From contig JAHBXQ010000002.1 of the NCBI GenBank assembly GCA_019636345.1, positions 930,001-994,000 of the forward strand: DNA of 64,000 nucleotides. Direction: 5' to 3'. Source of the DNA: Pirellulales bacterium (GTDB taxonomy: Bacteria; Planctomycetota; Planctomycetia; Pirellulales; Lacipirellulaceae). Position numbers and translations under genes: made by a program. The notes under the pieces are model-generated. The model was not told the origin of the DNA. It did not search any database and saw nothing but the letters and a program-made list of their open reading frames with translations. This document shows positions 41,055-55,755 of the stretch, piece by piece (positions within the stretch are counted from its first letter, which is position 1; every line of letters begins with the position of its first letter).

Positions 41055-41156
41055 TTACAACCTTGATCTCCCCCCGAGCCGGCGGGCGTCAGCCCCCGGA
41101 GCGACAAAAACGCGATTCCAATTACAATCAAAGTCATACCAGCCAAGGCGAACACA

Positions 41157-41579
41157 GTGTCGGGAACAACGCGTTGGCAGTACCTGCTCGCGGCCGCGGC
41201 CATCGGTTGGTCCGGCTGCAGCGGCGGCGGCGACGGCCTTGCGTCGGTCAAGGGACAGGTGCTGCTCGACGGCAAGCCCTTGACGGCCGGCGTCGTCGTG
41301 ACGATGCCCGAGAAAGGACGCGGCGCCCGCGGCGAGATCGATTCCGAGGGGCGATTCGTCCTGACCTCGGGCGAGTTGGGCGCCGGGGCGACGATCGGAA
41401 CTCACCGGGCGGCCGTCATCGCCGTCGAGGAGTCGGCGACGTTCAACCCCGAGGCCCCGAGGAAACTCCTCGTCCCGCAGCGGTACTCCGTCGCGGAGAC
41501 GTCGGGACTGGTCATTCAAGTCGAATCAGGCAAAGTCAACGAGGCGGTCCTCAATCTCTCGTCGCGGCCCGAGCGGTAG
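41157..41579 (+). CDS. Small lipoprotein with carboxypeptidase-regulatory-like fold
   Basis: A 140-residue lipoprotein with a GTG start, a lipobox IGWSGC and a single beta-sandwich domain (VKGQVLLDGKPLTAGVVVTMP, GRFVLTSG, THRAAVIAV, PQRYSVAETSGLVIQVESGK). It is the counterpart of 17228-17692 and follows a DUF1559 gene in the same way. Role unknown. Confidence 0.75.
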   Translation: MSGTTRWQYLLAAAAIGWSGCSGGGDGLASVKGQVLLDGKPLTAGVVVTMPEKGRGARGEIDSEGRFVLTSGELGAGATIGTHRAAVIAVEESATFNPEAPRKLLVPQRYSVAETSGLVIQVESGKVNEAVLNLSSRPER

Positions 41580-41648
41580 CGACGAGTTCCACGGAACTTT
41601 TTTTTCAGAAGAGAAACTTCTCAGAAGCGATTCGCCTATCGCCGTCGC

Positions 41649-41668
41649 GCGATCGTTGCGGCGATCGC
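41649..41668 (+). terminator. Hairpin between the lipoprotein and the giant PEP-CTERM gene
   Basis: GCGATCG/CGATCGC, a 7-bp perfect stem with a 6-base loop, about 70 bp after the lipoprotein stop. There is no immediate T-tract. Confidence 0.3.
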
Positions 41669-41815
41669 CGGGGCAGCGCGGCGGTAGGCGATCTTGTTGC
41701 GTTGTTCTCATGTCTTGCGGCCCGCGGCGGGCCATGGCGTTCGACCGGCGGTCGACGCCCGTCAACCACGCTCACCAGTGAAGTGCCATCCAGCACGCTT
41801 GAGGGGGAAGAGACG

Positions 41816-44800
41816 ATGATCGGACGGTCAATTACGGAATTCAGGACGGAATTCGGATCAGTCGCGATTCGGCGGACGCGACGAGTCGCGGCCTGGGCGG
41901 CGGCGCTCGCCATGGCGCTCGGCTGCGTCGGTACGGCCGACGCAGCGGACATCACGCTCTCTGCCAGCGACGGTTTGGGGACGTCTTCGTTCAACACCGG
42001 GTTGAACTGGCCGGGGGCCGTGGCCCCGACCGCCGGGAACAACTATTTCACCGGCAGCAACATCCTGCGGACCCCAGCCGACGGAGCGAGCCACGTGTTC
42101 GCCGGCGATTCGCTCACTGTGAATACCGCCAGCGGCACGGTGGCCGATTACTCCACGGGTTTGCTCTACAAGGGGACCGGCAACGCCGGCGTCATCACGA
42201 TCAACAACCTGATCCTGAACAGCGGATTGATCTCGCACGCCAATGGGACGGGCGACCTGTTTCAGCTTGCCGGCAACATCAACGTCGTCGCCCCCTCGAC
42301 GATCTACGCCAAGCAAGGCTCGATCACCATCAGCTCGGTCATCAGCGGCTCGGCCAATCTGACTGTCCCCGCCACCGACGACAACGGCAACGGCAATTTT
42401 GAATTGCGGCTGCTGACGCTCACCGGCGCCAACACGTTCACCGGCAATACGAGCGTCGCCGGGCGGTTGCGGGTCTCCAGCACGGGAGCGCTGAAGTTCA
42501 CGATCGGCGCCAGCGGCGTCAACAACAGCGTGAGCGGCACGGGCCGAGCCGAGTTCGGCGGCACGTTCAACTTCGATTTGACCGGCGCCAGCGCGACCCC
42601 AGGTTCGAGTTGGACGATCGCCAACGTCGCCACGCAGACGTTCACCAGCACCTTCTCGGTCGCCGGCTTCACCAAGTCGGGCGACTTCTGGACGAACGGC
42701 ACGTACCTGTTCAACCCGTTCGACGGGACGCTGTCGGTCGCCTCGGCGCCCTTGTCGTGGAACGTCGACGGCGGCGGCGCCTGGAACGTCGGCGGCAACT
42801 GGACCGGCGGCGTCGCCCCCGGCGCCTCGGCAAACGTCGTCTTCGGCGGCGTGCTGACCGCGGCCAACGCCCCGGCGACGGTCACGCTGACCGCGGCGGC
42901 GTCGGCCTCGCGGATCACGTTCAGCAACGCCAACCAGTACAAGCTCGCCGGTCCCGGCGTCCTCACCCTCAACGGTTTGGCCCAACTCGGCTCGACCAAC
43001 GGCACGCATGAAATCTCGGCCGTCATCGCCGGGACCGCCGGGTTGGTGAAGACCGGCGGCGGCGGCATCACGCTCTCGGCCGACAACACCTACACGGGGC
43101 TCACGGACGTCCAGGGAGGCGCGCTCCGTCTCGCTCGCGTCGGTTCGGTCGACGGCAACGCGACCGTCGCCGCCGGCGCCACGCTGGCCTTCGTCGGCGA
43201 CTCGCTGGGAGGCGGCTACAACGGCGTCTTCGCCGGCGACATCGCCGGGGCGGGCACGGTGCTGATTGACGGCTCGCTGACCACCGAAACCGTCACCTTC
43301 AGCGGCGCCAAGAGCTATTCGGGCCAAACGACGATCAACGGCGGCACGCTCGCCGTCAGCAACGCCGGGGCGCTGGGCGTCTCCGACGGGACCGTCGCCT
43401 CGCGCACGTTGCTCGGCGGCAACGAGCAGAAGGGCCAGTTGGCGTTGTCGGGCAACATCAACGTCGGCAACGAACTGTTGGTCCTCGCGGCTCGCGAGTT
43501 GAGCGCCGCGAATTCCCCCCACGTCGTCAGCACCGGCAACAACTCCTGGGCCGGCAACGTCAAGGGCGAAGTCGGCGGATCGCAATACAACCTCGTGTCG
43601 AACTCCGGCACGCTCACCCTGGGGGGCGTCATCTCCGCCCCTGACAGCGGTACGCGGAACTTCGTCTTCAGCGGAGCCGGCAACTTCAACGTGACCGGCA
43701 AGATCACCGATCTGGGGTCCAACGCCGACGGCACGTTGCCCCCGGCGCCGACCAATGCCGTGAGCAGCGTCAGCGTCATCAAGCAGGGGGCCGGCACGCT
43801 GACCATCGGCACCGCGACCAACCTTCAGGACGACTACTGGCTGGGCAACACCATCGTCGAAGGGGGCACGCTCCGCGTCCTCTCCGACGGCGCCAACAAC
43901 GGCGAACTCTGGAGCCCGCTGATCGCCGTCCGCGCAGGCGCGACGTTCGACGTCACCCACTTCGGCACTTACGCCCTGCAGGAATTCCAGCGGCTGGGCG
44001 GCGCCGGCACGGTGCTCGCCACCGGGAAGACCGTCGAGGTCTATGACGACAACTCGATCGCCCCCGGCGACAGCGTCGGCACGCTGACCATCAACGGCGC
44101 CATGACCCTCAACGGCGGCAGCGGCGGCGGGGCCCTCCAGTACGAACTGGGGAGCACGACCACCGTCGGCGGAGTCGTCAACGACCTTTTGAACGTCACC
44201 GGCGCCCTGACCGTCAACGGGTCGCCGACGATGAACCTTGACATTACTCCGGCCGACGGCGGGCTGGCCACCGGCACGTACCGCTTGATCTCGCACGCCG
44301 GCGGCACGACGTCGCTCGGCGGGATCACGCCTCGCGTCCTCAATCCCGCGGGCAATCCGCTGACGATTCGCCAGAGCTTGGCCGTCAGCGGCGCGACCGC
44401 CGGGCAGGTGAACCTCGTCGTCTCCGGCAGCAAGGCCAATCTCACCTGGACCGGCGCCGGCGGCACGGCCTGGGACTTGAACAACACCGCGAGTTGGTCC
44501 GGCGGCGACACCCGTTACTTCGATCTCGACAGCGTCACGTTCAACGACACGGCCGGGGCGAATACGACGGTCGACATCTCCTCGTCGTCGGTTTCGCCGG
44601 CGTCGATCGCGCTGACCAGCGCCGCCAGCCGCACGTTCACTTTCACCGGCACGCAGGGCGTTCAGGGGAGCGCCCCCGTCTCGCTCACCGGCAATGTGAC
44701 TGCGGTGCTGGCCAACGCCAATAACAACCTCACCGGCACGATCAGCGTCGGCGCCGGAACCACGTTGCAGCAAGGCAACGGGTCGAGCACCGGAACGACG

Positions 44801-46561
44801 ATCTCGACCGGAGTCGTCAGCGGCGCCGGCACGATTCGCGTCGATTCCGGCACGCTGCAGCTCAGCGGCGCCAACACGTTCACCGGAGCGGTGGTCGTCA
44901 ACGGCGGCGTGCTGAACATGGATTCGGCCACCGCGCTGGGAACGACCGCAGCCGGCACCACGATCAACGCCGGCGGAACGGTGCGCTCCAACAGCGACGC
45001 CTACACGACCAGCGAACCGTTCACCCTGAACGGCGGCGCCCTGGCCGTCGGCGGCGGGGCCTCCGCGGCCCTCACGCTGGCCGGGCCGATCACCGTCAAC
45101 GCCGGCGGCGGCACGTTCCAGGTCGACGGCGGCGGCGGCGACGACGCCCTGACCGTGACTAGCGCCATCGGCGGCGCGGCGGCCGGAGCCGTCAACGCCA
45201 ACATCGACGGCGGCTCGCGCATGACCGTCGCCGGGGCTGTCAGCAACAACGGCGCGCTCAACAAGAACGGCACGGGCGTCTTGGCACTCGCCGCTTCGGC
45301 GACCGTCTCGTCCCCGCTCGTCAACGTGAGCAACGGTTCGCTCGACGTCACGGCCCTGGGGACCTTCGTCGTGGCCAACGGGCAGACCCTCAGCGGGTCG
45401 GGCGGCGGCGTGGTGACGGGCAACGTCAGCGCGGCCAGCGGTTCGACGATTCGCGTCGGCTCCGCCGGCATGCCGACCCAGTTGGTCTACCAATACCTCG
45501 ACGCCACCCACGGCGTCGGCGGCAACACGACCCTTTCCAGCGGAGCTACGTTTGAACCGACGACCAACCCCGACTGGCAGCTTCGCACCGCGTTGGGCAA
45601 CAACGGCACGATCTATCAGGGCGGCAGCGACGATCCCGCCTCGGCGCCTGAACTGAAGTCGACCATTACCGGCCTCACTCCCGGCGCAACCTATACGGTG
45701 TACGCCAATTACTGGGACGCGACCGGTTCGCAGTGGCAGATCCGGGCCGGGACGACCTCAGGCGCTTTGACCTTGTACGACTCGCCTGACGACGCCGTCG
45801 CCGGCGCCGTCGACGGGATCAACACCTCGACCTTGTTCTACGCGACCGCTCCTCTGCGGACCGAAGGGAACCGGACCATGTACGGCGCCCCCATGGGCAA
45901 CATGGTCGCCGACGTCAACGGGCACATCGCGGTGTTCATCGACGACGGCGGCAACGCCTCGGTCGGCGACGGTCGCACGTGGTACGACGGCTTGAGCTTC
46001 AGCGACGGCTCGACCGCCGCGATCAGCCAAACGATGACGGTCAGCGGCGATCTGACCCTCAACGCCGGGTCGACGCTGGCGATCGACATCTCGACTCCCT
46101 CGGCGCACGACAAGCTGAACGTCACGGGCAACCTTGCCGCCGGCGGGACGTTGGCGGTGTCGCTTCAGGCGGGGTCGCCGACCCTTGCCGCGGGGAACGT
46201 GTTCGACATCCTTGATTTCGCCAGCGCGAGCGGGTCGTTCAGCACGGTCAGCCTGCCGAGTCTGACCGGCGGGTTGAGCTGGGATACGTCGAGTCTGCTG
46301 ACCACGGGCCAGTTGAGCGTCGTCGCCGGCGGTTTGCCGGGCGACTTCAACTCGGACACCAAGGTCGACGGCAGCGATTTCCTGGCTTGGCAGCGTAATC
46401 CGGGGGTCGGCAATCTGAGCGATTGGCGAACGAACTACGGCGCAGGCGTCGGCCCCGCGACTCCCGCGGTCGGGGCCGTGCCCGAGCCGTCGACGCTGAT
46501 CCTGGCTGCCTGTCTGATGGGCGCGACGGTCGCCGCCAGCCGACGCCGTCGAGGCTGCTGA
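41816..46561 (+). CDS. Giant autotransporter-type beta-strand repeat protein with dockerin segment and PEP-CTERM
   Basis: A 1581-residue exported protein starting at an ATG behind an AGGGGGAAG purine tract. The signal peptide ends AADA. Autotransporter-associated beta-strand repeats recur: LTGANTFTGNTSVAG (about 200), LSADNTYTGLTDVQGG (about 420), FSGAKSYSGQTTINGG (about 495), LSGANTFTGAVVVNGG (about 1015). Residues about 1223-1400 match the small PEP-CTERM protein 39152-39862. A dockerin-like DFNSDTKVDGSDFLAWQRNP (about 1510) and the exosortase signal VPEPSTLILAACLMGATVAA plus SRRRR close it. It probably forms a long beta-helical surface adhesin or matrix protein. There is no outer-membrane translocator barrel, so it is not a true autotransporter. 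Confidence 0.85.
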   Translation: MIGRSITEFRTEFGSVAIRRTRRVAAWAAALAMALGCVGTADAADITLSASDGLGTSSFNTGLNWPGAVAPTAGNNYFTGSNILRTPADGASHVFAGDSLTVNTASGTVADYSTGLLYKGTGNAGVITINNLILNSGLISHANGTGDLFQLAGNINVVAPSTIYAKQGSITISSVISGSANLTVPATDDNGNGNFELRLLTLTGANTFTGNTSVAGRLRVSSTGALKFTIGASGVNNSVSGTGRAEFGGTFNFDLTGASATPGSSWTIANVATQTFTSTFSVAGFTKSGDFWTNGTYLFNPFDGTLSVASAPLSWNVDGGGAWNVGGNWTGGVAPGASANVVFGGVLTAANAPATVTLTAAASASRITFSNANQYKLAGPGVLTLNGLAQLGSTNGTHEISAVIAGTAGLVKTGGGGITLSADNTYTGLTDVQGGALRLARVGSVDGNATVAAGATLAFVGDSLGGGYNGVFAGDIAGAGTVLIDGSLTTETVTFSGAKSYSGQTTINGGTLAVSNAGALGVSDGTVASRTLLGGNEQKGQLALSGNINVGNELLVLAARELSAANSPHVVSTGNNSWAGNVKGEVGGSQYNLVSNSGTLTLGGVISAPDSGTRNFVFSGAGNFNVTGKITDLGSNADGTLPPAPTNAVSSVSVIKQGAGTLTIGTATNLQDDYWLGNTIVEGGTLRVLSDGANNGELWSPLIAVRAGATFDVTHFGTYALQEFQRLGGAGTVLATGKTVEVYDDNSIAPGDSVGTLTINGAMTLNGGSGGGALQYELGSTTTVGGVVNDLLNVTGALTVNGSPTMNLDITPADGGLATGTYRLISHAGGTTSLGGITPRVLNPAGNPLTIRQSLAVSGATAGQVNLVVSGSKANLTWTGAGGTAWDLNNTASWSGGDTRYFDLDSVTFNDTAGANTTVDISSSSVSPASIALTSAASRTFTFTGTQGVQGSAPVSLTGNVTAVLANANNNLTGTISVGAGTTLQQGNGSSTGTTISTGVVSGAGTIRVDSGTLQLSGANTFTGAVVVNGGVLNMDSATALGTTAAGTTINAGGTVRSNSDAYTTSEPFTLNGGALAVGGGASAALTLAGPITVNAGGGTFQVDGGGGDDALTVTSAIGGAAAGAVNANIDGGSRMTVAGAVSNNGALNKNGTGVLALAASATVSSPLVNVSNGSLDVTALGTFVVANGQTLSGSGGGVVTGNVSAASGSTIRVGSAGMPTQLVYQYLDATHGVGGNTTLSSGATFEPTTNPDWQLRTALGNNGTIYQGGSDDPASAPELKSTITGLTPGATYTVYANYWDATGSQWQIRAGTTSGALTLYDSPDDAVAGAVDGINTSTLFYATAPLRTEGNRTMYGAPMGNMVADVNGHIAVFIDDGGNASVGDGRTWYDGLSFSDGSTAAISQTMTVSGDLTLNAGSTLAIDISTPSAHDKLNVTGNLAAGGTLAVSLQAGSPTLAAGNVFDILDFASASGSFSTVSLPSLTGGLSWDTSSLLTTGQLSVVAGGLPGDFNSDTKVDGSDFLAWQRNPGVGNLSDWRTNYGAGVGPATPAVGAVPEPSTLILAACLMGATVAASRRRRGC

Positions 46562-46716: not shown

Positions 46717-49380
46717 ATGACTTGCCGCTCGAAGTGGTCCCTCGGGACGACCATGCTCCTGCTCGCGATGCTTGCCGGCGAAGCGACCCAGGCCGCCATC
46801 CTCTCGCAAAAGCGCGGCTTTGCCGACACCGGAGCGGGTTACTCGAATCTGCAGGCGACCGGGGCCGGATGGTACTACACCTGGGGGCTCGGGGCCGGCA
46901 ATCCGGGCAACTTCGACGCCAAGCACTATCCCATGTTTTGGGGAGGCTGGGCGGTCAACCAAACGAACATCAACAACGTCAAGGCCGCCAATCCCGAGTA
47001 CGTTCTCGGCTTCAACGAGCCGGAGCGGTCCGATCAGGCCAACATGACGGTCTCCCAGGCGATTTCCTCGTGGACGACCCTTCACAACGGTTTCGCCGGC
47101 ACGGGGATCAAGCTTGTCAGTCCCGCGGTTTCCGACACGTCTGGCGGTCAAGCGTGGCTGTCGAGCTTCATGAGTCAGGCCAACTCTCAGGGCCTGCGGG
47201 TCGATGCCGTCGCATTTCACTGGTACGGAGTCAGCAACCCCGACAACCCCGCCGGAGCGGCCAGTTCCTTCCTCAGCCGGGTCGATTCGTACTACAACTC
47301 GTACGGCAAGCCGGTGTTTATCACCGAGTTCGCGATCCACGACTGGGGGAACGCCTACTCCGACGCGGCGATCATCGAAGCGAACCGCCAGTTCCTCGAC
47401 ATCGTGATCCCCGCGCTCGATTCGCGCAGCTACGTCGCCGGGTACGCGTGGTATCACTGGTTCAGCGACGCTCGGCTCTACAACGGCAATCCCCCCGTGC
47501 CGACGCCGATGAGCTACGCCTACACCGGCGTCCTGAAGAGCGGGCAGAGCGAGAATATCGCGGGCCGCACCCTGGGCGAGCACGTCGCCTATTTGGCCGG
47601 CGGTACGCTGCAGCAGAACGGAGCCGTTCCCGGAGTCGTTCGCTACATCAACGCCCTGGAAGGCACGAGCACGGTCACCGGCACCTCCAACTGGAACATG
47701 ACTACCGACAACTGGATTCGCATTCAGCCCGGCGCCACGTTGCGGAAGTCGGGCGCCAACGCCATGGGGATCCTCGGCGGCAGCGTCACGAACAACGGGT
47801 TATTTGAAATCGCCGAGGGGACCTTTCAACTCGGCTCCTCGATGACCGGCTCCGGCAACGTGCTGGTGAGCGGCGGCACGCTCGCCCTCACCGGCCGCGG
47901 CCAGATGTCGACGGCTCCCCGCATCGAGATCAAGTCGGCCGGCACCTTCGACGTGTCTCTGCAATCAAGCCCCTTTACGGTCTCGCCAGGGCAGACTCTG
48001 CACATGCGGCGTTCGTCGCAGGCGCTCGGCAGTTTGGCTGCGGGGAACGGGTCGCAGATCACGGGCGCCGCCAGCGTCTCGGGCGACTTGTCGCTCCTGG
48101 CCGGGTCCGTCGTCCGCATCGGCGACGACGGCTCAGGGGCCCCGCGCCGGGTCAAGATCGACGACTTCGAGAGCTACGCGCTAGGCAACGTCCGCGACGT
48201 CGCCAGTCCCCCTTGGACGGCCCACGAAAACACCAGCTTGATCGACATTGAGAGCTACGGCGGCGGCAAAGTGCTCACCTACGGCTGGGCCACCAATTTC
48301 CGCGGCGGGTCGCGCACCCTGCCGGAGGAGGCGATCCTCGAAAACTCGGAGTCCGCCACCTACTTCTTCCGGTTCAACTCCAAGACCGACGTTCCCAATC
48401 ACAACCTCGGCCTCGGCGACAAAGCGACGACGGCCACCGCCGACTTCGGCGACTACGAAGCTCAGCTTCGCATCAAGCAAGGAACCTCCGCGGGGACGGT
48501 TGCGATCGACGCCCGCAACGGCGGCGGCTTTTCGGCCACGCTCGCCAGCGGGCTGGCGCTCAACGCTTGGTACAACGTCTGGATGGTCGTCGACCAAGCG
48601 ACCGACACCTACGACGTGTACATGAATCAGGGAGACGGCGACGCGACGGCGGGCAACAAGCTCAATGCCTCTCCGTTGGCGTTCCGCAACGGCACATCCG
48701 ACGACCTGAACGTGTTTCTCGCCCTGGCCGGTTCCGCGCCGGTCGACAACGGCGTGCGCGTCGACGATCTGTTCTACTTCAAGGGTCTCGACCTGACGAA
48801 CCCGCTCACCGGCTACGATCCCGAGCACACCTGGTTCGCCGACGTCCTGGCCGTCGGGGGCAACTATTCTCAGGCGACCGGCTCGGTGCTCGAAATCAAC
48901 CTGTTCGACCCGGCGTCGTACGACGTGCTGTCGATCGCGGGGCATGCCGCGTTGGGGGGCGAGTTGCGCGTGACGATGGCGTACGGCGCCCCGGCGCCGC
49001 AGGCGGGCGACGTATTTCAGGTTCTCGAGTTCGACTCCGCAAGCGGCGCCTTCGATCTGCTGACCCTGCCGGCGCTTGACCCCGGTTTGGCCTGGAAGAC
49101 CAGCGACTTGGCACTCACCGGCGAGTTGCAGGTCGTGCCGGTCGTGCCCGGCGACTTCAATCATGACGGCGTCGTCGATGGCGTCGATTTCCTCGCCTGG
49201 CAACGCGGCGAGTCCCCCATGGCGGGGAGCTCCGAAGACTTGGCAAGCTGGCAGGCAAACTTCGGCGCCGGCGGTCAACCTGGCGCCGCCGCCGCCGTGC
49301 CCGAGCCAAGCACGCTGGCGCTGGTCGCCCTGGCGGCGCTTGCGGCGCTCGCCTCCGGCCGTGGCCGCCATGCGCGTTAG
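46717..49380 (+). CDS. GH128-type glycoside hydrolase (beta-1,3-glucanase-like) with dockerin segment and PEP-CTERM
   Basis: An 887-residue exported protein. The N-terminal 270 residues are an Asl1/GH128-like TIM barrel: WYYTWG at the start, YVLGFNEPE with the likely acid/base E101, VAFHWYG, and VFITEFAIHDWGN with the likely nucleophile E204. The middle is a beta-rich region with autotransporter-like strands (VTNNGLFEIAEGTFQLGSS) and a concanavalin-like segment (VKIDDFESYALGNV). A dockerin-like DFNHDGVVDGVDFLAWQRGE and the exosortase signal VPEPSTLALVALAALAALAS then RGRHAR end it. Known GH128 enzymes cut beta-1,3-glucan (laminarin, curdlan), and the window also has a GH16. Anchoring by PEP-CTERM suggests cell-surface action. 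Confidence 0.82.
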   Translation: MTCRSKWSLGTTMLLLAMLAGEATQAAILSQKRGFADTGAGYSNLQATGAGWYYTWGLGAGNPGNFDAKHYPMFWGGWAVNQTNINNVKAANPEYVLGFNEPERSDQANMTVSQAISSWTTLHNGFAGTGIKLVSPAVSDTSGGQAWLSSFMSQANSQGLRVDAVAFHWYGVSNPDNPAGAASSFLSRVDSYYNSYGKPVFITEFAIHDWGNAYSDAAIIEANRQFLDIVIPALDSRSYVAGYAWYHWFSDARLYNGNPPVPTPMSYAYTGVLKSGQSENIAGRTLGEHVAYLAGGTLQQNGAVPGVVRYINALEGTSTVTGTSNWNMTTDNWIRIQPGATLRKSGANAMGILGGSVTNNGLFEIAEGTFQLGSSMTGSGNVLVSGGTLALTGRGQMSTAPRIEIKSAGTFDVSLQSSPFTVSPGQTLHMRRSSQALGSLAAGNGSQITGAASVSGDLSLLAGSVVRIGDDGSGAPRRVKIDDFESYALGNVRDVASPPWTAHENTSLIDIESYGGGKVLTYGWATNFRGGSRTLPEEAILENSESATYFFRFNSKTDVPNHNLGLGDKATTATADFGDYEAQLRIKQGTSAGTVAIDARNGGGFSATLASGLALNAWYNVWMVVDQATDTYDVYMNQGDGDATAGNKLNASPLAFRNGTSDDLNVFLALAGSAPVDNGVRVDDLFYFKGLDLTNPLTGYDPEHTWFADVLAVGGNYSQATGSVLEINLFDPASYDVLSIAGHAALGGELRVTMAYGAPAPQAGDVFQVLEFDSASGAFDLLTLPALDPGLAWKTSDLALTGELQVVPVVPGDFNHDGVVDGVDFLAWQRGESPMAGSSEDLASWQANFGAGGQPGAAAAVPEPSTLALVALAALAALASGRGRHAR

Positions 49381-50552: not shown

Positions 50553-52211
50553 CTAGAATCCGTCCCCCGCCAACTCGGATGCGATTGCGGCCCGCAAATC
50601 TTCGCGCGATCGGTAGTAGTCGACCGTTGCGTCGACGACCAGCATTTGGGCGTCGGCGACCGATTGTTCGCGCAAGTAGATCATCAAGATGTTGCTGCTT
50701 CCTTCGTCGAACAGCCGCCACTCGGCCTTTTCCATTTGGATTGCCAGCTCGACGTTGCGGCGGGCTTGCTTCAACTGGATGTAGTCGGCCGTGAGCGCCG
50801 TCATCGCGCTGCGTACGTCCGCGGCGATCTTCTGTTCGACCAGCCGCCTCTTAGCCGAGATCTGAGCCAGCTTTCCCTGGGCGGACTGCATCTTGCCTTG
50901 GGCTGCGCGCCGCTGGAACGGCACATCGAGCAGCATCCCCGCTTCGAGTTCGAATTCCGACTTGTCGCGCTTCGGGCTGGTCGGTTCGCCGACGTCCTGC
51001 GACGCGGTCATCACCCCGTCGATCGCCGGCAGCATGAGGTTCTGAGCCTGGCGCACCTCGACCGACGCCTGCTGACTGGCGTTGGCCAACAGCCGCACCT
51101 CGGGCCGCAGGGACAGGGCCTGGGCGATCTGACTCGCCAGTTGCTTTGAGTCGGGCTCTTCAACTGGCGGGAAATCCGCCGGCAGGCGTTCGGGGCCCGC
51201 CAGCAACGGCGTTCCGTCGGGGGAACGCAGGAAGATCGACAGTTTGATCGCCGCCTGCTGCAACTTGCGATCGGTCGCGACGAGTCGCGCCCTGCGCGAG
51301 ACGATCAGCCGCTCGTTGTCGACGAGTTCAATTCCCTTCACGCTCCCCAGCTCGACGCTCTGGCGGAGTTTGACCTGCCGCGTTTCCGCGATCTCGAGCA
51401 TCGACCGAGCGATTTCGACCTGCCGTCCCGCCGCGATCCAATCCCAGTAGGCGATCGAACCTTCGCGAACTGCGGCGATGATCTCCATTTGCACAAGCGG
51501 TTCAGCCGCCGCTTGCTGCAGCCGAGTCTTGAACACCGCTGCGCGCCGCTTGTCGATGTCCCGATCGCGGAGAAACGGCATCGCGAATCCGGTTTTGAAC
51601 TCGCCCCCTTTGTTCGTCTCGCGCTCGAGGTACCACGGTTCGAACACGCCGCGCCCCAGGCGATAACCGCCGAAGACTTGCCCGCCCCCCCAGGTATACT
51701 GCTTGGCGCCGAGCCCGTAGCGATAGTTCTCGTAGTACCCGGGCGAATCGGCGAGCGCTTCGCCGACGATGTTCAGATCGAATTCGCCCATCGCCTCCAG
51801 GGCTTGTCCCGCAGCAATTTGCCGCTCGCGCGCCGCCGCCTCGATCCCGGGATAATTCGCGTAGATGGCCTGGACGACGTCGTCAAGCGCAAGCGACTCC
51901 TCGGCGACTTGCGGCTCGATCGACTCGAAGTCGTCCCCGATCGGCGGCAGCGGCTCGACGACTTCCGCGGCCGGGTTGACGAGCGGGTCGGTTTCGCCCT
52001 TCTCCGCAGCCTGATACGCGACTTGGCGCACCGCGTCCGCAGGCGGAGACACTGCCGATACGTCGCTCGACACGACGGGCTTCTCGGGCGCAGCGACTTG
52101 GGCGGCCGGTTGCGCCGCGGGCTCGGTCAAGGCGTGAGGAGGCCCCGCCTTGCAACCGACGTACGCAACGGACGCTAGCGTCGCCAGCAGGGTGGCCGCT
52201 CGGTTCTTCAT
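50553..52211 (-). CDS. TolC-family outer membrane efflux protein
   Basis: A 552-residue protein. The ATG at 52211 shares one base with the HlyD stop (TGATG). The lipoprotein-like leader (ATLASVAYVGCKAG) is followed by a 90-residue Pro/Ala/Val-rich linker, then two TolC-type coiled-coil halves (LDDVVQAIYANYPGIEAAAR, and AQGKMQSAQGKLAQISAKRR in the second). TolC proteins form trimeric outer-membrane exit ducts. It is the last gene of the ABC-HlyD-TolC operon. Confidence 0.87.
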   Translation of the reverse strand: MKNRAATLLATLASVAYVGCKAGPPHALTEPAAQPAAQVAAPEKPVVSSDVSAVSPPADAVRQVAYQAAEKGETDPLVNPAAEVVEPLPPIGDDFESIEPQVAEESLALDDVVQAIYANYPGIEAAARERQIAAGQALEAMGEFDLNIVGEALADSPGYYENYRYGLGAKQYTWGGGQVFGGYRLGRGVFEPWYLERETNKGGEFKTGFAMPFLRDRDIDKRRAAVFKTRLQQAAAEPLVQMEIIAAVREGSIAYWDWIAAGRQVEIARSMLEIAETRQVKLRQSVELGSVKGIELVDNERLIVSRRARLVATDRKLQQAAIKLSIFLRSPDGTPLLAGPERLPADFPPVEEPDSKQLASQIAQALSLRPEVRLLANASQQASVEVRQAQNLMLPAIDGVMTASQDVGEPTSPKRDKSEFELEAGMLLDVPFQRRAAQGKMQSAQGKLAQISAKRRLVEQKIAADVRSAMTALTADYIQLKQARRNVELAIQMEKAEWRLFDEGSSNILMIYLREQSVADAQMLVVDATVDYYRSREDLRAAIASELAGDGF

Positions 52212-53575
52212 CAAAGCTTGAGCTTCGGTTTCTTGACGTCGTCTTTCCCGCCCTTGTCCATGTCCTTCGGCGCCTTGGACGAGACGACTGGCGGAAAACC
52301 GTTCATCTGTCGCCAAACCTCGTAGCCGAGCGTTACCTGTTTTAGCAGGACCCACCCGTTTGCCCGAACTCCCTGGCGAAGATAGCTCGTGTCGGGCCAC
52401 CCGCCGGCGTCGTGGGGATCAGGCAGCACGAGCACGCGGAATTGCCCGCTGCCGTTGTCCGTGGCGTCGACGATGACGACTTCGCCCCCGAAGGTGCCGA
52501 CCGCCACCGACGGCCAGCCGGCAAACTGCACCGCGGGCCATCCCTCGAATTGCAGCCGCACGTGTCGACCCGGCGAGATCAACGGCGCGTCGTTCCCCGA
52601 CACCCACAATTCGACTGCTCGTTGGGCGTTCTCCGGCACAAGCACGAACAGCGGGTCGCCTTGCTTGACAATTTCGCCCCCCTCGTTGACCAACAATCGC
52701 ACAATCGTGCCGCTGCGCGGCGCGGTGATGATCTGGCTCTGTTGAGTGGCGAGCTTCCCTTCGACTTCAGTGAGCTCCTTGCGCGCCAGTGCGACGTCGC
52801 CTGCGGCTTTCTGTTGTTCGGCTCGAGCGGCTTCGATGTACCCGGTCGCCTCGCGACGCTTCTGTTCAAGCTGCGACTTCTTGGCGCTTAGCGAGCTCTT
52901 GGCCGAAGTGATGTACGCCTCGGCCTGTCGCAGCTTCGCCTGCGCCTCGCGGTGCTGTCGTTCGGCGATTTCGACGTCCTGTTTCGAGGCCAATTGCGCC
53001 GTCAGCAGTTCGCGTTGCCGATCGAAGTACGCCTTCGCTTGGCTCTCGGCGGCGATTGCCGCATTCAGGCCTTGCACCTCGGCCTCGATCTTTTGCTCGG
53101 CCATCACGACTTCCTGAGCGGCCGCTGCGATTCCCAGCTCCTGAGCTTGCATGACCGCCGTGTACTTGTCGCTGTAGGCGCGCGCGACCTCCTCCGAGGC
53201 CGAAAGTTTTTCGTGGGCGGCTTCTCGCTGCAGCGCCAAGCGATCGAGCGCCGCCGGGTCGACGTCGCGCAGCTCGACGATCTCCTGCCCCCGTTCCACG
53301 CGGGCGCCTTCGCGAATTCCTTCTCCCCACTTGAACACCCGCCCCGAGATGTTCGCCTGAATCGTCTGCTGCCGCTCCAGCGGCGCATATGCGACGACTT
53401 GCCCGCTCCCCTTTACCGACTGCTGCCACGGCGCGAACAACATGGCCGCGATCATTGCCAACAGCAGGACCACGAGCGCATTGGCGATGCGCCGCGGGAT
53501 GCGCGGCGAGACGATCAATCGCAGCACCGGGAGATTCGCCTGCAGCAGTTCGCCGGAAGGTTGGCTGGTGAGCAT
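52211..53575 (-). CDS. HlyD-family membrane-fusion (periplasmic adaptor) protein
   Basis: A 454-residue adaptor. It has one N-terminal membrane helix (ANALVVLLLAMIAAMLFAPW, about 31-50), then a lipoyl half (QANISGRVFKWGEGIREGAR). A long coiled coil spans about 105-285, rich in A/Q/E/K, and the second lipoyl half is IITAPRSGTIVRLLVNEGGE. The C-terminus is lysine-rich. It starts two bases after the ABC gene stop and overlaps the TolC gene. In type I secretion it bridges the inner-membrane ABC protein and TolC. Confidence 0.9.
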   Translation of the reverse strand: MLTSQPSGELLQANLPVLRLIVSPRIPRRIANALVVLLLAMIAAMLFAPWQQSVKGSGQVVAYAPLERQQTIQANISGRVFKWGEGIREGARVERGQEIVELRDVDPAALDRLALQREAAHEKLSASEEVARAYSDKYTAVMQAQELGIAAAAQEVVMAEQKIEAEVQGLNAAIAAESQAKAYFDRQRELLTAQLASKQDVEIAERQHREAQAKLRQAEAYITSAKSSLSAKKSQLEQKRREATGYIEAARAEQQKAAGDVALARKELTEVEGKLATQQSQIITAPRSGTIVRLLVNEGGEIVKQGDPLFVLVPENAQRAVELWVSGNDAPLISPGRHVRLQFEGWPAVQFAGWPSVAVGTFGGEVVIVDATDNGSGQFRVLVLPDPHDAGGWPDTSYLRQGVRANGWVLLKQVTLGYEVWRQMNGFPPVVSSKAPKDMDKGGKDDVKKPKLKL

Positions 53576-53577
53576 GG

Positions 53578-55755
53578 TCAGTCTCCTGCGCCTGGCTCGT
53601 CGCGTCCGTTCAGAGGGAAGCGGCGATCCGATTGGCTGGGATCAAGGTTCACGACGCGCGACAGGGCTGCGGCGACCTCGCGCCGCCCCGTGGAAATGAT
53701 CAACGTCAGCTCGCCTGCGGTCGACGACAGACGGGGGAGAATTGTCGCCAACATGGGGTCGGGCAGGCCGTCGAGCAGGCCGTCGATCAGCAGCATTCGC
53801 GGGTTCCCGGCGAGCGCCCGGGCCAGCATCAGACGAACGTGCTGGTCGTAGGACAGTTCGTGCCCGCCGGTGGTGACCGAGGCGTCCAGCCCTTCGGGCA
53901 TCGCCAGCAGTTCGTCACGCAATTCGACCGTGGCGAGCGATTGTCTCACCCGCGCTTCGGTGGCCTGGGGCCGACCGAGGTGCAGGTTCTCGGCGATCGA
54001 GCCTTCGAAAATCTCGATTCGCCCGACGAGGGCCGCCTGATCAAGGATCGAATCGATCCTCAGCCGCCGCGCGTCGAAGCCGTCGAGTTCCACGTACCCC
54101 GAGGCCGGCGCCCGCAAGCCGACGATCGTCTCTAAGAGCCGGGTCCGGTCGGATGCGGCGCCGCCGACCAGAACGGCTTGCTCGCCAGGAGCGAGTCGCA
54201 GATTTGCGGCCGACTTTGACAGTCCCCCGGCCGACTCCACCCCCACGGAGTTCAAGGCGACGGAGATCCCCCCGCCGCGGACCGGCAGATCGACCCCTTC
54301 GCTGCGATTGATCGGCATGTCGAACAGGTATCCCAGCTTGTCGGCCGCGGCCACGACGTCGTAGTAGCTCTCGACATGCTTGCCGATCTTGGCGAACGAG
54401 CCGACGATCACGGTGACGATCAGTTCCGCGGCCACCAATTGGCCGAGCGTCAGCTCGCCTTGGATGACGAGCCATCCCCCCAGCCCGAGCAGGACTGTGC
54501 TGGCGATCGCCTGCAAGCCAAGCGCGGCGACGATTTGCCGCATCAGCACGCGGAAGTGGGCCTGCCGGGCGAGCAGGTAGTTCGTCACCTGCCGGTCGGC
54601 GACGTCGAGGGCGAACTTCATCGAGCTGCGCCCGTGGAAGGTCGTGCGATGGCGGGCCAGTTCCTGCAACCACGCTGCGGTGCGGTACTTGTATTTTGAC
54701 TCGTCGACGGCGCTCTTCACGGCGCCGCGTCCCAACACGAGCACGATGCCCGCTACGATCGCCAGCAGGATGAGGTCGAACCCCAAGAGCAGGGGGTGAT
54801 AAAACGCGATCACTGTCATGCCGACGAACGTTTGCAGCGCAAGCGCGACGCCGTCCAGCAACAACTGCGAGGTCACCTTCTGCACGGTCACCACGTCGAA
54901 AAACCGATTGACGAACTCGGGGCCGTAGTGGTGATCCCAAAACTCGGTCTGAACGCGCGGCAGACGCTGCGACAGATCGGCGCTGACCCGAACGTAGATC
55001 CGCTGCTGAATGATCTCCGCAATGTAAGTTTGCAGGGCTCGCAGGGCCGCCGAAAAACCGAGGAACACTAGCAGAATCACGGCTAGCACGACGACCGGCT
55101 GCAGCAGTCGGCCGAACGCCACCGTGTTGACGAGCGCCTCGACGGCGATCGGCGTCGACAACGTCAGCAGCCCGACCACGACGGCGAACACCAGAATGAC
55201 CCCGATGTCGCCGCGATCGGGGCGCAGCAGCCCCACGAAACGCGACAGGGGGGACCGCGAGCGATCTGCCGGCGGTTCGCAGGGCAGCAAGCCTTGCAGG
55301 GAGATCCAGTCGAGCGGTTCGTCCGACGCCCCGATGCGCTGGCCCAATTCCTTCGGCGTAATCCAGTGAGCGTGGTCGGGATCGTGCGACGAAACGACCT
55401 CGAGCTTGCCGCCGCGGTGGTCGACGACCAACAGCCATTCAAGTTCCCCGGCGTCACTGGCCGAGATTCGGGCCAGCGGGGCGCCTCCTCTGACCAAACC
55501 GATCGCCGCCTTCAAGTCGAACTGCAACTGGTCGGCCCGCAGGTTCAGTTCGGGGGCGATCTCCGTCAACGCATCACGCCAGCTCTCCGGCGTCGCATCG
55601 GGCGCTTGAAGCAGCGCAGAAGTCAGGCCACGTCGGGTCCGCCCCCGGTCAAGAGGCATGGAGATCCAACGGCAGGCGGCGTCGAGCATTTCGACGAGCC
55701 GCGTCGCCGTATCCGAGGCATGAGGCTGTGCATCAAGGCCGGCATCGTTCGTCAT
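53578..55755 (-). CDS. ABC exporter-like protein with degenerate ATPase domain
   Basis: A 725-residue type I secretion-like ABC protein. The first 160 residues may be a decayed C39-like domain (ELEWLLVVDHRGGKLEVVSS). Six membrane helices follow (about 180-460, FAVVVGLLTLSTPIAVEALV onwards). The nucleotide-binding domain has lost every key motif: Walker A reads GGAASDRT (about 531) with no GK, the Q-loop region has G for Q (ALVGRIEIF), the signature is LSYDQ instead of LSGGQ, Walker B is LLIDGLLDG with no glutamate, and the H-loop is IISTGRR with no histidine. ATP hydrolysis is therefore unlikely. The frame is intact and the HlyD and TolC partners look normal, so the protein is probably still used. 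Confidence 0.88.
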   Translation of the reverse strand: MTNDAGLDAQPHASDTATRLVEMLDAACRWISMPLDRGRTRRGLTSALLQAPDATPESWRDALTEIAPELNLRADQLQFDLKAAIGLVRGGAPLARISASDAGELEWLLVVDHRGGKLEVVSSHDPDHAHWITPKELGQRIGASDEPLDWISLQGLLPCEPPADRSRSPLSRFVGLLRPDRGDIGVILVFAVVVGLLTLSTPIAVEALVNTVAFGRLLQPVVVLAVILLVFLGFSAALRALQTYIAEIIQQRIYVRVSADLSQRLPRVQTEFWDHHYGPEFVNRFFDVVTVQKVTSQLLLDGVALALQTFVGMTVIAFYHPLLLGFDLILLAIVAGIVLVLGRGAVKSAVDESKYKYRTAAWLQELARHRTTFHGRSSMKFALDVADRQVTNYLLARQAHFRVLMRQIVAALGLQAIASTVLLGLGGWLVIQGELTLGQLVAAELIVTVIVGSFAKIGKHVESYYDVVAAADKLGYLFDMPINRSEGVDLPVRGGGISVALNSVGVESAGGLSKSAANLRLAPGEQAVLVGGAASDRTRLLETIVGLRAPASGYVELDGFDARRLRIDSILDQAALVGRIEIFEGSIAENLHLGRPQATEARVRQSLATVELRDELLAMPEGLDASVTTGGHELSYDQHVRLMLARALAGNPRMLLIDGLLDGLPDPMLATILPRLSSTAGELTLIISTGRREVAAALSRVVNLDPSQSDRRFPLNGRDEPGAGD

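Follow-up and report, generated by a model that had tools for sequence, protein, structure and literature searches.

Degenerate ATPase motifs in a type I secretion-like ABC protein of a Pirellulales bacterium and in its relatives from three phyla

Results and discussion

Gene content of the locus

The window, i.e. the whole stretch of 64,000 nucleotides that was analysed, belongs to a genome of 5.18 Mb and contains a three-gene operon on the minus strand with the order ABC, HlyD, TolC:

53578..55755, minus strand: ABC protein, putative pseudo-ATPase, 725 aa, operon gene 1 (ATG at 55755, stop ending at 53578)
52211..53575, minus strand: HlyD-family membrane fusion protein (adaptor), 454 aa, operon gene 2
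50553..52211, minus strand: TolC/OEP outer-membrane protein, operon gene 3 (likely start ATG 52211, stop 50553)

The stop codon of the ABC gene and the ATG of the HlyD gene are 2 nt apart, and the HlyD stop overlaps with the likely TolC ATG (TGATG). Pfam domains ABC_membrane and ABC_tran were assigned to gene 1, HlyD_3 to gene 2 and OEP to gene 3, the latter two with matches above the Pfam cut-offs. PF00005 matched the nucleotide-binding domain (NBD) of the ABC protein with 45.3 bits (cut-off 25). The scores for the NCBIfam models of HlyB (129.6 vs 725.55 bits) and LssB (150.7 vs 693.1 bits) were below the respective cut-offs. A full-length frame coupled to HlyD and TolC genes, as described in the original prediction, is thus confirmed.

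Elsewhere in the window, a predicted secreted protein is encoded at 46717-49380 (plus strand), in which a PEP-CTERM-like tail and a dockerin-like DFNHDGVVDGVDF stretch were recognised by eye. An open frame of 1832 aa at 41063-46561 (plus strand) lies opposite a frame of 1217 aa at 41858-45511 (minus strand); of the two, one is probably a real gene and the other an antisense shadow of it.

Predicted structure

The AF2 model of the ABC protein reached a mean pLDDT of 87.6 and a pTM of 0.87. The following parts were distinguished:

55288..55728, minus strand: N-terminal alpha/beta domain, residues 10-156, pLDDT mostly above 90
54316..55263, minus strand: ABC exporter membrane domain (TMD), residues 165-480, the most conserved part
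54877..54909, minus strand: NRFFDVVTVQK; in an alignment of 17 sequences from three phyla, N, R, Q and K are invariant
54793-54807, minus strand: AFYHP, residues 317-321, with Tyr and His invariant in the same alignment
53620..54273, minus strand: degenerate NBD, residues 495-712 (from PF00005, the model and the motif tables)

HlyB (8dck_A) was the best Foldseek match (E 4.6e-26, TM-score 0.57, 19% identity). It aligned over model residues 18-718 in a whole-model alignment. Judged from this alignment, the N-terminal domain may be C39-like, as in HlyB. It is absent from the shorter family members, and 43 of 156 members have 605 aa or less. With VIA-align, chain 6quz_C of TM287/288, for example, was matched over 418 residues (Z 26.7, rmsd 3.6), tied with many other entries. 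The window protein thus has the fold of an ABC exporter, with TMD and NBD on one chain, and according to the model and both structural comparisons the fold of the NBD is predicted to be intact despite the lost motifs. When the family profile was compared with the PDB, HlyB was the first bacterial entry among the matches listed (profile positions 180-698). By analogy, NRFFDVVTVQK would correspond to the cytosolic coupling region.

ATPase motifs of the window protein

The motif positions of the NBD are as follows:

54142..54165, minus strand: Walker A position GGAASDRT, residues 531-538
54007..54030, minus strand: Q-loop position LVGRIEIF, Gln absent, Gly at 578
53842..53856, minus strand: signature position LSYDQ, residues 634-638, Ser and Gln kept
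53770..53793, minus strand: Walker B position LLIDGLLD, D658 kept, catalytic Glu replaced by Gly at 659
53674..53694, minus strand: H-loop position STGRREV, His replaced by Gly at 690

The Walker Lys, the catalytic Glu, the switch His, the Q-loop Gln and the signature are all changed, and one residue is missing from the Q-loop segment in comparison with four canonical controls. A functional set of ATPase motifs (Walker A, Q, signature, Glu, His) was consequently not found in this protein. The description "dead in every motif" holds for these five altered sites, but goes slightly too far with regard to the Walker B Asp (D658) and the signature Ser and Gln, which are still present. In the same alignment, every motif was seen in two further ABC exporters encoded by this genome (L002, L003); hence, the loss is not an alignment artefact. 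In addition, the Asp-Glu pair of Walker B and the H-loop His were present in all 22 canonical exporters from this genome and relatives. These controls, one from each of 22 loci, were chosen by Walker A and signature patterns, so that those two motifs are intact by construction, whereas Glu and His played no part in the choice.

Distribution and motif loss in planctomycetes

Relatives were detected in 24 of 43 genomes of the taxonomic family and in 122 of 296 genomes sampled in the order, the own genome being counted. At E 1e-70, 44 of 392 genomes sampled in the phylum, including the order genomes and the own genome, contained relatives. Since the genome searches score two or three candidate places per genome, these counts are lower bounds. 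The family comprised 156 distinct members, window included, and 152 of them covered both the Glu and the His column (whole NBD); L144, L146, L150 and L157 were excluded from the latter set due to a gap in one of these columns. Contig-edge fragments of G030, G107, G212, G262, G271 and G492 and the second piece of G090 were left out, and the near-duplicate L111 was removed. L034 is the same gene as L055, and L099 is the same as that of the window.

The catalytic Glu was kept in 6, the switch His in 7 and the Q-loop Gln in 5 of the 152 members, and exact LSGGQ in 3. An ungapped intact Walker A was present in 103/152 (111/156 if internal gaps are allowed) and the Walker B Asp in 136/152. With Walker A in about two thirds and the Walker B Asp in most of the family, the majority of members may still bind ATP. 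No member (0/152) showed the full motif set; 45 of the 152, among them the window protein, lacked all four of Walker A, Gln, Glu and His. Gly replaced the catalytic Glu in 96/152, and the Q-loop segment was one residue short in 148/152 compared with the four canonical controls. L169 lacks only the Q-loop Gln and keeps Walker A, the signature Ser and last Gly, the Walker B Asp, Glu and His. The Glu was also found in L152, L053, L155, L172 and L175. To judge from their motifs, these Glu-keeping members may be active or may have been so recently. The check proposed in the original prediction showed that the loss of Glu, His and Gln is common to nearly all members; close homologues with intact catalytic residues, which would have pointed to recent decay, were not among them.

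It could be assumed that catalysis is residual or re-routed, with another acidic residue such as D662 standing in for Glu. The column of residue 662, four positions after the Walker B Asp, is Asp in 151/156 members and Ser in the four canonical controls, in agreement with this assumption. However, Asp also occurs in members without Walker A, the window protein included. Therefore, a structural role of D662 is likelier, and we regard a substitution of this kind as highly improbable.

When canonical exporters were used to root a FastTree phylogeny, the family formed one clade (support 0.82). Walker A (Gly-Lys) was intact at the root, and at least 14 changes of it were placed on this tree; the root state of Glu was ambiguous. 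Judged from this pattern, the family looks like a lineage that slid from near-active to dead many times, not in a single event. The window protein, L055 (60% identical) and L056 (51%) formed a fully supported clade, and all three were without Walker A. Thus, the loss of Walker A predates these species. By TMD identity, the three nearest relatives have lost Walker A as well; it is present in the more distant ones listed, which are nevertheless without Glu, His and Gln.

Recent decay or a pseudogene in this strain might be suspected, as many relatives have an intact Walker A. The candidate was rejected on account of the full-length frame, the loss shared by the nearest other species and the purifying selection described below; its probability is negligible.

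Conservation of the domains and selection

The NBD dN/dS lay between 0.02 and 0.18 in eight planctomycete pairs that lack Walker A and have a dS <0.4; six of these pairs belong to a single clade. The window protein gave 0.22 with L055, at a dS of 1.96 and thus near saturation, and 0.53 with L056. The pair L214-L205 lies outside the dN/dS set. The purifying selection on the NBD indicates that the domain is retained for something.

The TMD was more conserved than the NBD: its identity to the window protein exceeded that of the NBD in 14/14 relatives, with a median difference of 23 points. In canonical exporters the relation was reversed, with NBD above TMD in 20/20 comparisons (sets of 8/8 and 12/12, covering 12 of the same 14 genomes). 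In two of these comparisons, L234 and L235, the TMDs share 27 and 22% identity, and true orthology is unlikely. Among pairs with a TMD identity of 45-85%, the median gap was 15 points with intact Walker A (NBD above TMD in 20/5363) and 20 points without Walker A (0/662). The entropy of the TMD was 1.48 vs 1.95-2.49 for parts of the NBD, and the strongest constraint included NRFFDVxTVQK and YHP.

Gene neighbourhood and regulators

For 100 members, 4 kb of downstream sequence were available. On the same strand, HlyD was found in 96, TolC in 88 and both in 85 of them; 15 were without one or both. L079 (genome G150) showed no downstream HlyD or TolC match and no Walker A, and its H-loop His is present. 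The genes recurring around 43 loci (42 distinct, window included) were clustered, and the three operon genes appeared in 43, 42 and 41 loci. Among the further clusters, one LysR and one winged-helix gene were represented in 10 loci each and another gene in 8; the largest further clusters were frames overlapping the core genes. A candidate cargo gene did not recur near the operon in these 43 loci. A conserved fourth operon gene was considered and rejected, as the additional recurring LysR and winged-helix genes are regulators and not part of the pump.

The LysR gene is of the NhaR type (NCBIfam NF008284 above cut-off in two of two tested). Within the 2.5 kb examined upstream, it lies divergently at up to 2 kb from the ABC gene in 24/105 members, e.g. 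at L056:9637-10539 (plus strand) and L070:4488-5414 (minus strand). Across 155 loci, 29 of 33 strong NhaR-like matches were located in this divergent upstream place, so the link with the operon is not due to chance. The small winged-helix (MarR-like) gene is situated directly upstream on the same strand in 9/105 members, e.g. at L057:9639-9977 (minus strand) and L062:7952-8335 (plus strand). Neither regulator was found within 2 kb in the window. NhaR is a sodium-responsive regulator in E. coli. A neighbour of this kind suits an ion-linked role of the system; this is only a hint and says nothing on energy.

Search for a partner ATPase

According to the original prediction, the protein may need a partner ATPase in a heterodimer, work as a passive scaffold or be driven in another way. 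In the first case it would form a heterodimer of the TM287/288 or TmrAB kind, in which it supplies the inactive half and a protein encoded elsewhere the active one. Degenerate sites are described as common in non-homodimeric exporters in PMC7756269 and, for TmrAB, in PMC8277102. This genome does hold two other ABC_membrane proteins, and only two, both ABC exporters with intact motifs. Several observations stand against the heterodimer. The signature of the window protein is degenerate as well, and no second ABC half adjoining the operon recurred around the 43 loci. In the 43 genomes of the taxonomic family the number of other ABC_membrane proteins ranged from zero to six; G003 and G010 contained one each and G014, which is 93% complete, had no other match. 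Genomes without the pseudo-ABC family also hold one to four ABC_membrane proteins. Complementary paralogue pairs were rejected too, since in the four genomes with two full copies (G054, G055, G208, G260) every copy is without the catalytic Glu and the H-loop His. The suggested orphan active half-transporter thus did not emerge as a dedicated partner, and we judge the heterodimer unlikely.

Another possibility is an unrelated ATPase acting in trans, for instance the secondary SecA of planctomycetes. In Kamneva 2015 (PMC4452313), this SecA is linked to type I secretion proteins; the SecA_DEAD/HlyD/M50 loci described there are reported to have no ABC transporter, and SecA is proposed as a possible source of the ATPase activity. 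That module and the operon studied here have in common HlyD and OEP, the lack of a recognised active ABC pump and the phylum. They differ in that the loci of Kamneva 2015 are without an ABC protein, whereas this operon has one and no SecA_DEAD gene was co-located with it among the recurring neighbours of the 43 loci. The genome has a second SecA_DEAD protein (G000:C1:995373-996569, L239; a 657-aa frame besides one of 1234 aa), a type common throughout the order, but its gene sits on another contig. Two or more SecA_DEAD matches were counted by hand in 114/122 genomes with the pseudo-ABC family and in 153/174 without it, where the matches may include split genes. The secondary SecA therefore hardly discriminates between both groups, and an energy supply by SecA appears very unlikely.

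Relatives outside the planctomycetes

With tblastn, 22 plasmid records were matched at E 1e-30, all of them from Sphingomonadales or Bacteroidota; annotated type I exporters appeared, among the matches listed, only at about E 1e-15 to 1e-17. The proteins of 13 of 15 matching Sphingomonadales records and of 4 of 7 Bacteroidota records were read, the other three being further Riemerella. Where annotated, these relatives carry ordinary ABC transporter names. A relative is also encoded by the environmental strain N. aromaticivorans DSM 12444 (SARO_RS19820). HlyD and TolC followed in the same order in all 11 outside loci with flanks. The ABC gene of L258 (Sphingobium sp. TKS plasmid pTK1) is immediately followed by an IS3 transposase gene, at the place expected for HlyD. 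The neighbours of L253 (Riemerella anatipestifer, NZ_CP081938.1), a thymidine kinase and a murF-alr fusion, look chromosomal, so this "plasmid" may be chromosomal DNA.

All 13 Sphingomonadales proteins were without the Walker A Lys and Ser/Thr, the Walker B Asp, the switch His and the Q-loop Gln, and 12 of them without Glu. Pfam ABC_tran was below the cut-off in three of three tested. Their NBD dN/dS amounted to 0.07-0.20 (eight pairs), and TMD identity exceeded NBD identity in 77/78 pairs. Of the four Bacteroidota proteins, only L253 had an intact Walker A and Glu. The Walker B Asp occurred in none and the switch His in 0/4, one protein being gapped there. For the Bacteroidota pair L244-L249, saturation of dS left the dN/dS undefined. 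In a tree with outgroups, the planctomycete members stood together (support 0.87), and the node joining all relatives against the canonical exporters reached only 0.15. At this support the losses outside the planctomycetes may be either shared or parallel. Common to the three groups are the operon order and the motifs of the membrane domain.

These data also bear on the idea of a nucleotide-gated valve, in which ATP binding without hydrolysis locks or opens the conduit, as in SUR. Walker A and the Walker B Asp are kept in 103 and 136 of 152 planctomycete members while Glu and His are gone, which fits such a valve. But the repeated changes of Walker A on the tree, its loss in the window protein and the absence of the Lys in 13/13 Sphingomonadales speak against it, and we consider the valve quite unlikely.

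Comparison with known systems

HlyB/HlyD/TolC of E. coli (HlyB structures 7sgr and 8dck) is similar in fold and operon logic. Whereas HlyB is active as an ATPase and has the complete motif set, the window protein has lost these motifs, and both the low identity to HlyB and the scores far below the NCBIfam cut-offs set it apart. Most likely, the window protein works like the inner-membrane part of type I secretion, although its lack of ATPase motifs keeps it from being counted as a member.

The heterodimeric exporters TM287/288, TmrAB and TAP each combine one competent site with a partner half; for exporters of this kind, changes of the catalytic residues at one site are described in PMC7756269. 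No partner half recurs around the 43 loci of the family studied here. In SUR and CFTR the ABC fold is reused for gating or regulation, i.e. for non-transport roles. According to an abstract on SUR1, SUR still interacts with Mg-nucleotides, and both proteins are eukaryotic and outside any HlyD-TolC system. No paper describing a family with ABC pseudo-ATPase, HlyD and TolC was recognised in searches of the open-access PMC literature.

Proposed role

From the motif tallies we consider it fairly likely that the ABC subunit of this old type I secretion-like family is a pseudo-ATPase, serving as gate or scaffold without hydrolysis of its own. Passive scaffold and other drive, the remaining two of the three initial readings, fit the data, because the loss is common across species and phyla and the NBD is under purifying selection; the heterodimer partner is disfavoured. 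The protein would still fold and, below HlyD and TolC, probably assemble into a dimer of the ABC exporter kind, with the NBDs as a cytosolic base holding the coupling helices, and the conduit would be opened or gated without ATP hydrolysis. The drive might come from elsewhere, i.e. from a substrate gradient, from an ion gradient or membrane potential, or from cargo folding outside. The conserved His of AFYHP, near the membrane boundary, could matter for such an alternative drive. Relatives that have retained Walker A may still be able to bind ATP, which would lock the dimer; the window protein is unlikely even to bind it. More tentatively, though plausibly, the HlyB-like TMD of these cross-phylum tripartite systems may be a conduit or gate driven by an ion gradient, the potential or cargo folding, and the NBD may be a structural clamp.

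It is assumed that an ABC exporter must hydrolyse ATP at one or more of its sites. The family studied here is kept across three phyla, with apparently no competent site in many members and no dedicated partner found, and would show that such a scaffold can be preserved for another purpose. It thereby offers a natural system to ask which role the NBD has besides hydrolysis. If the proposed role is true, the ABC exporter architecture would serve export without requiring the ATPase.
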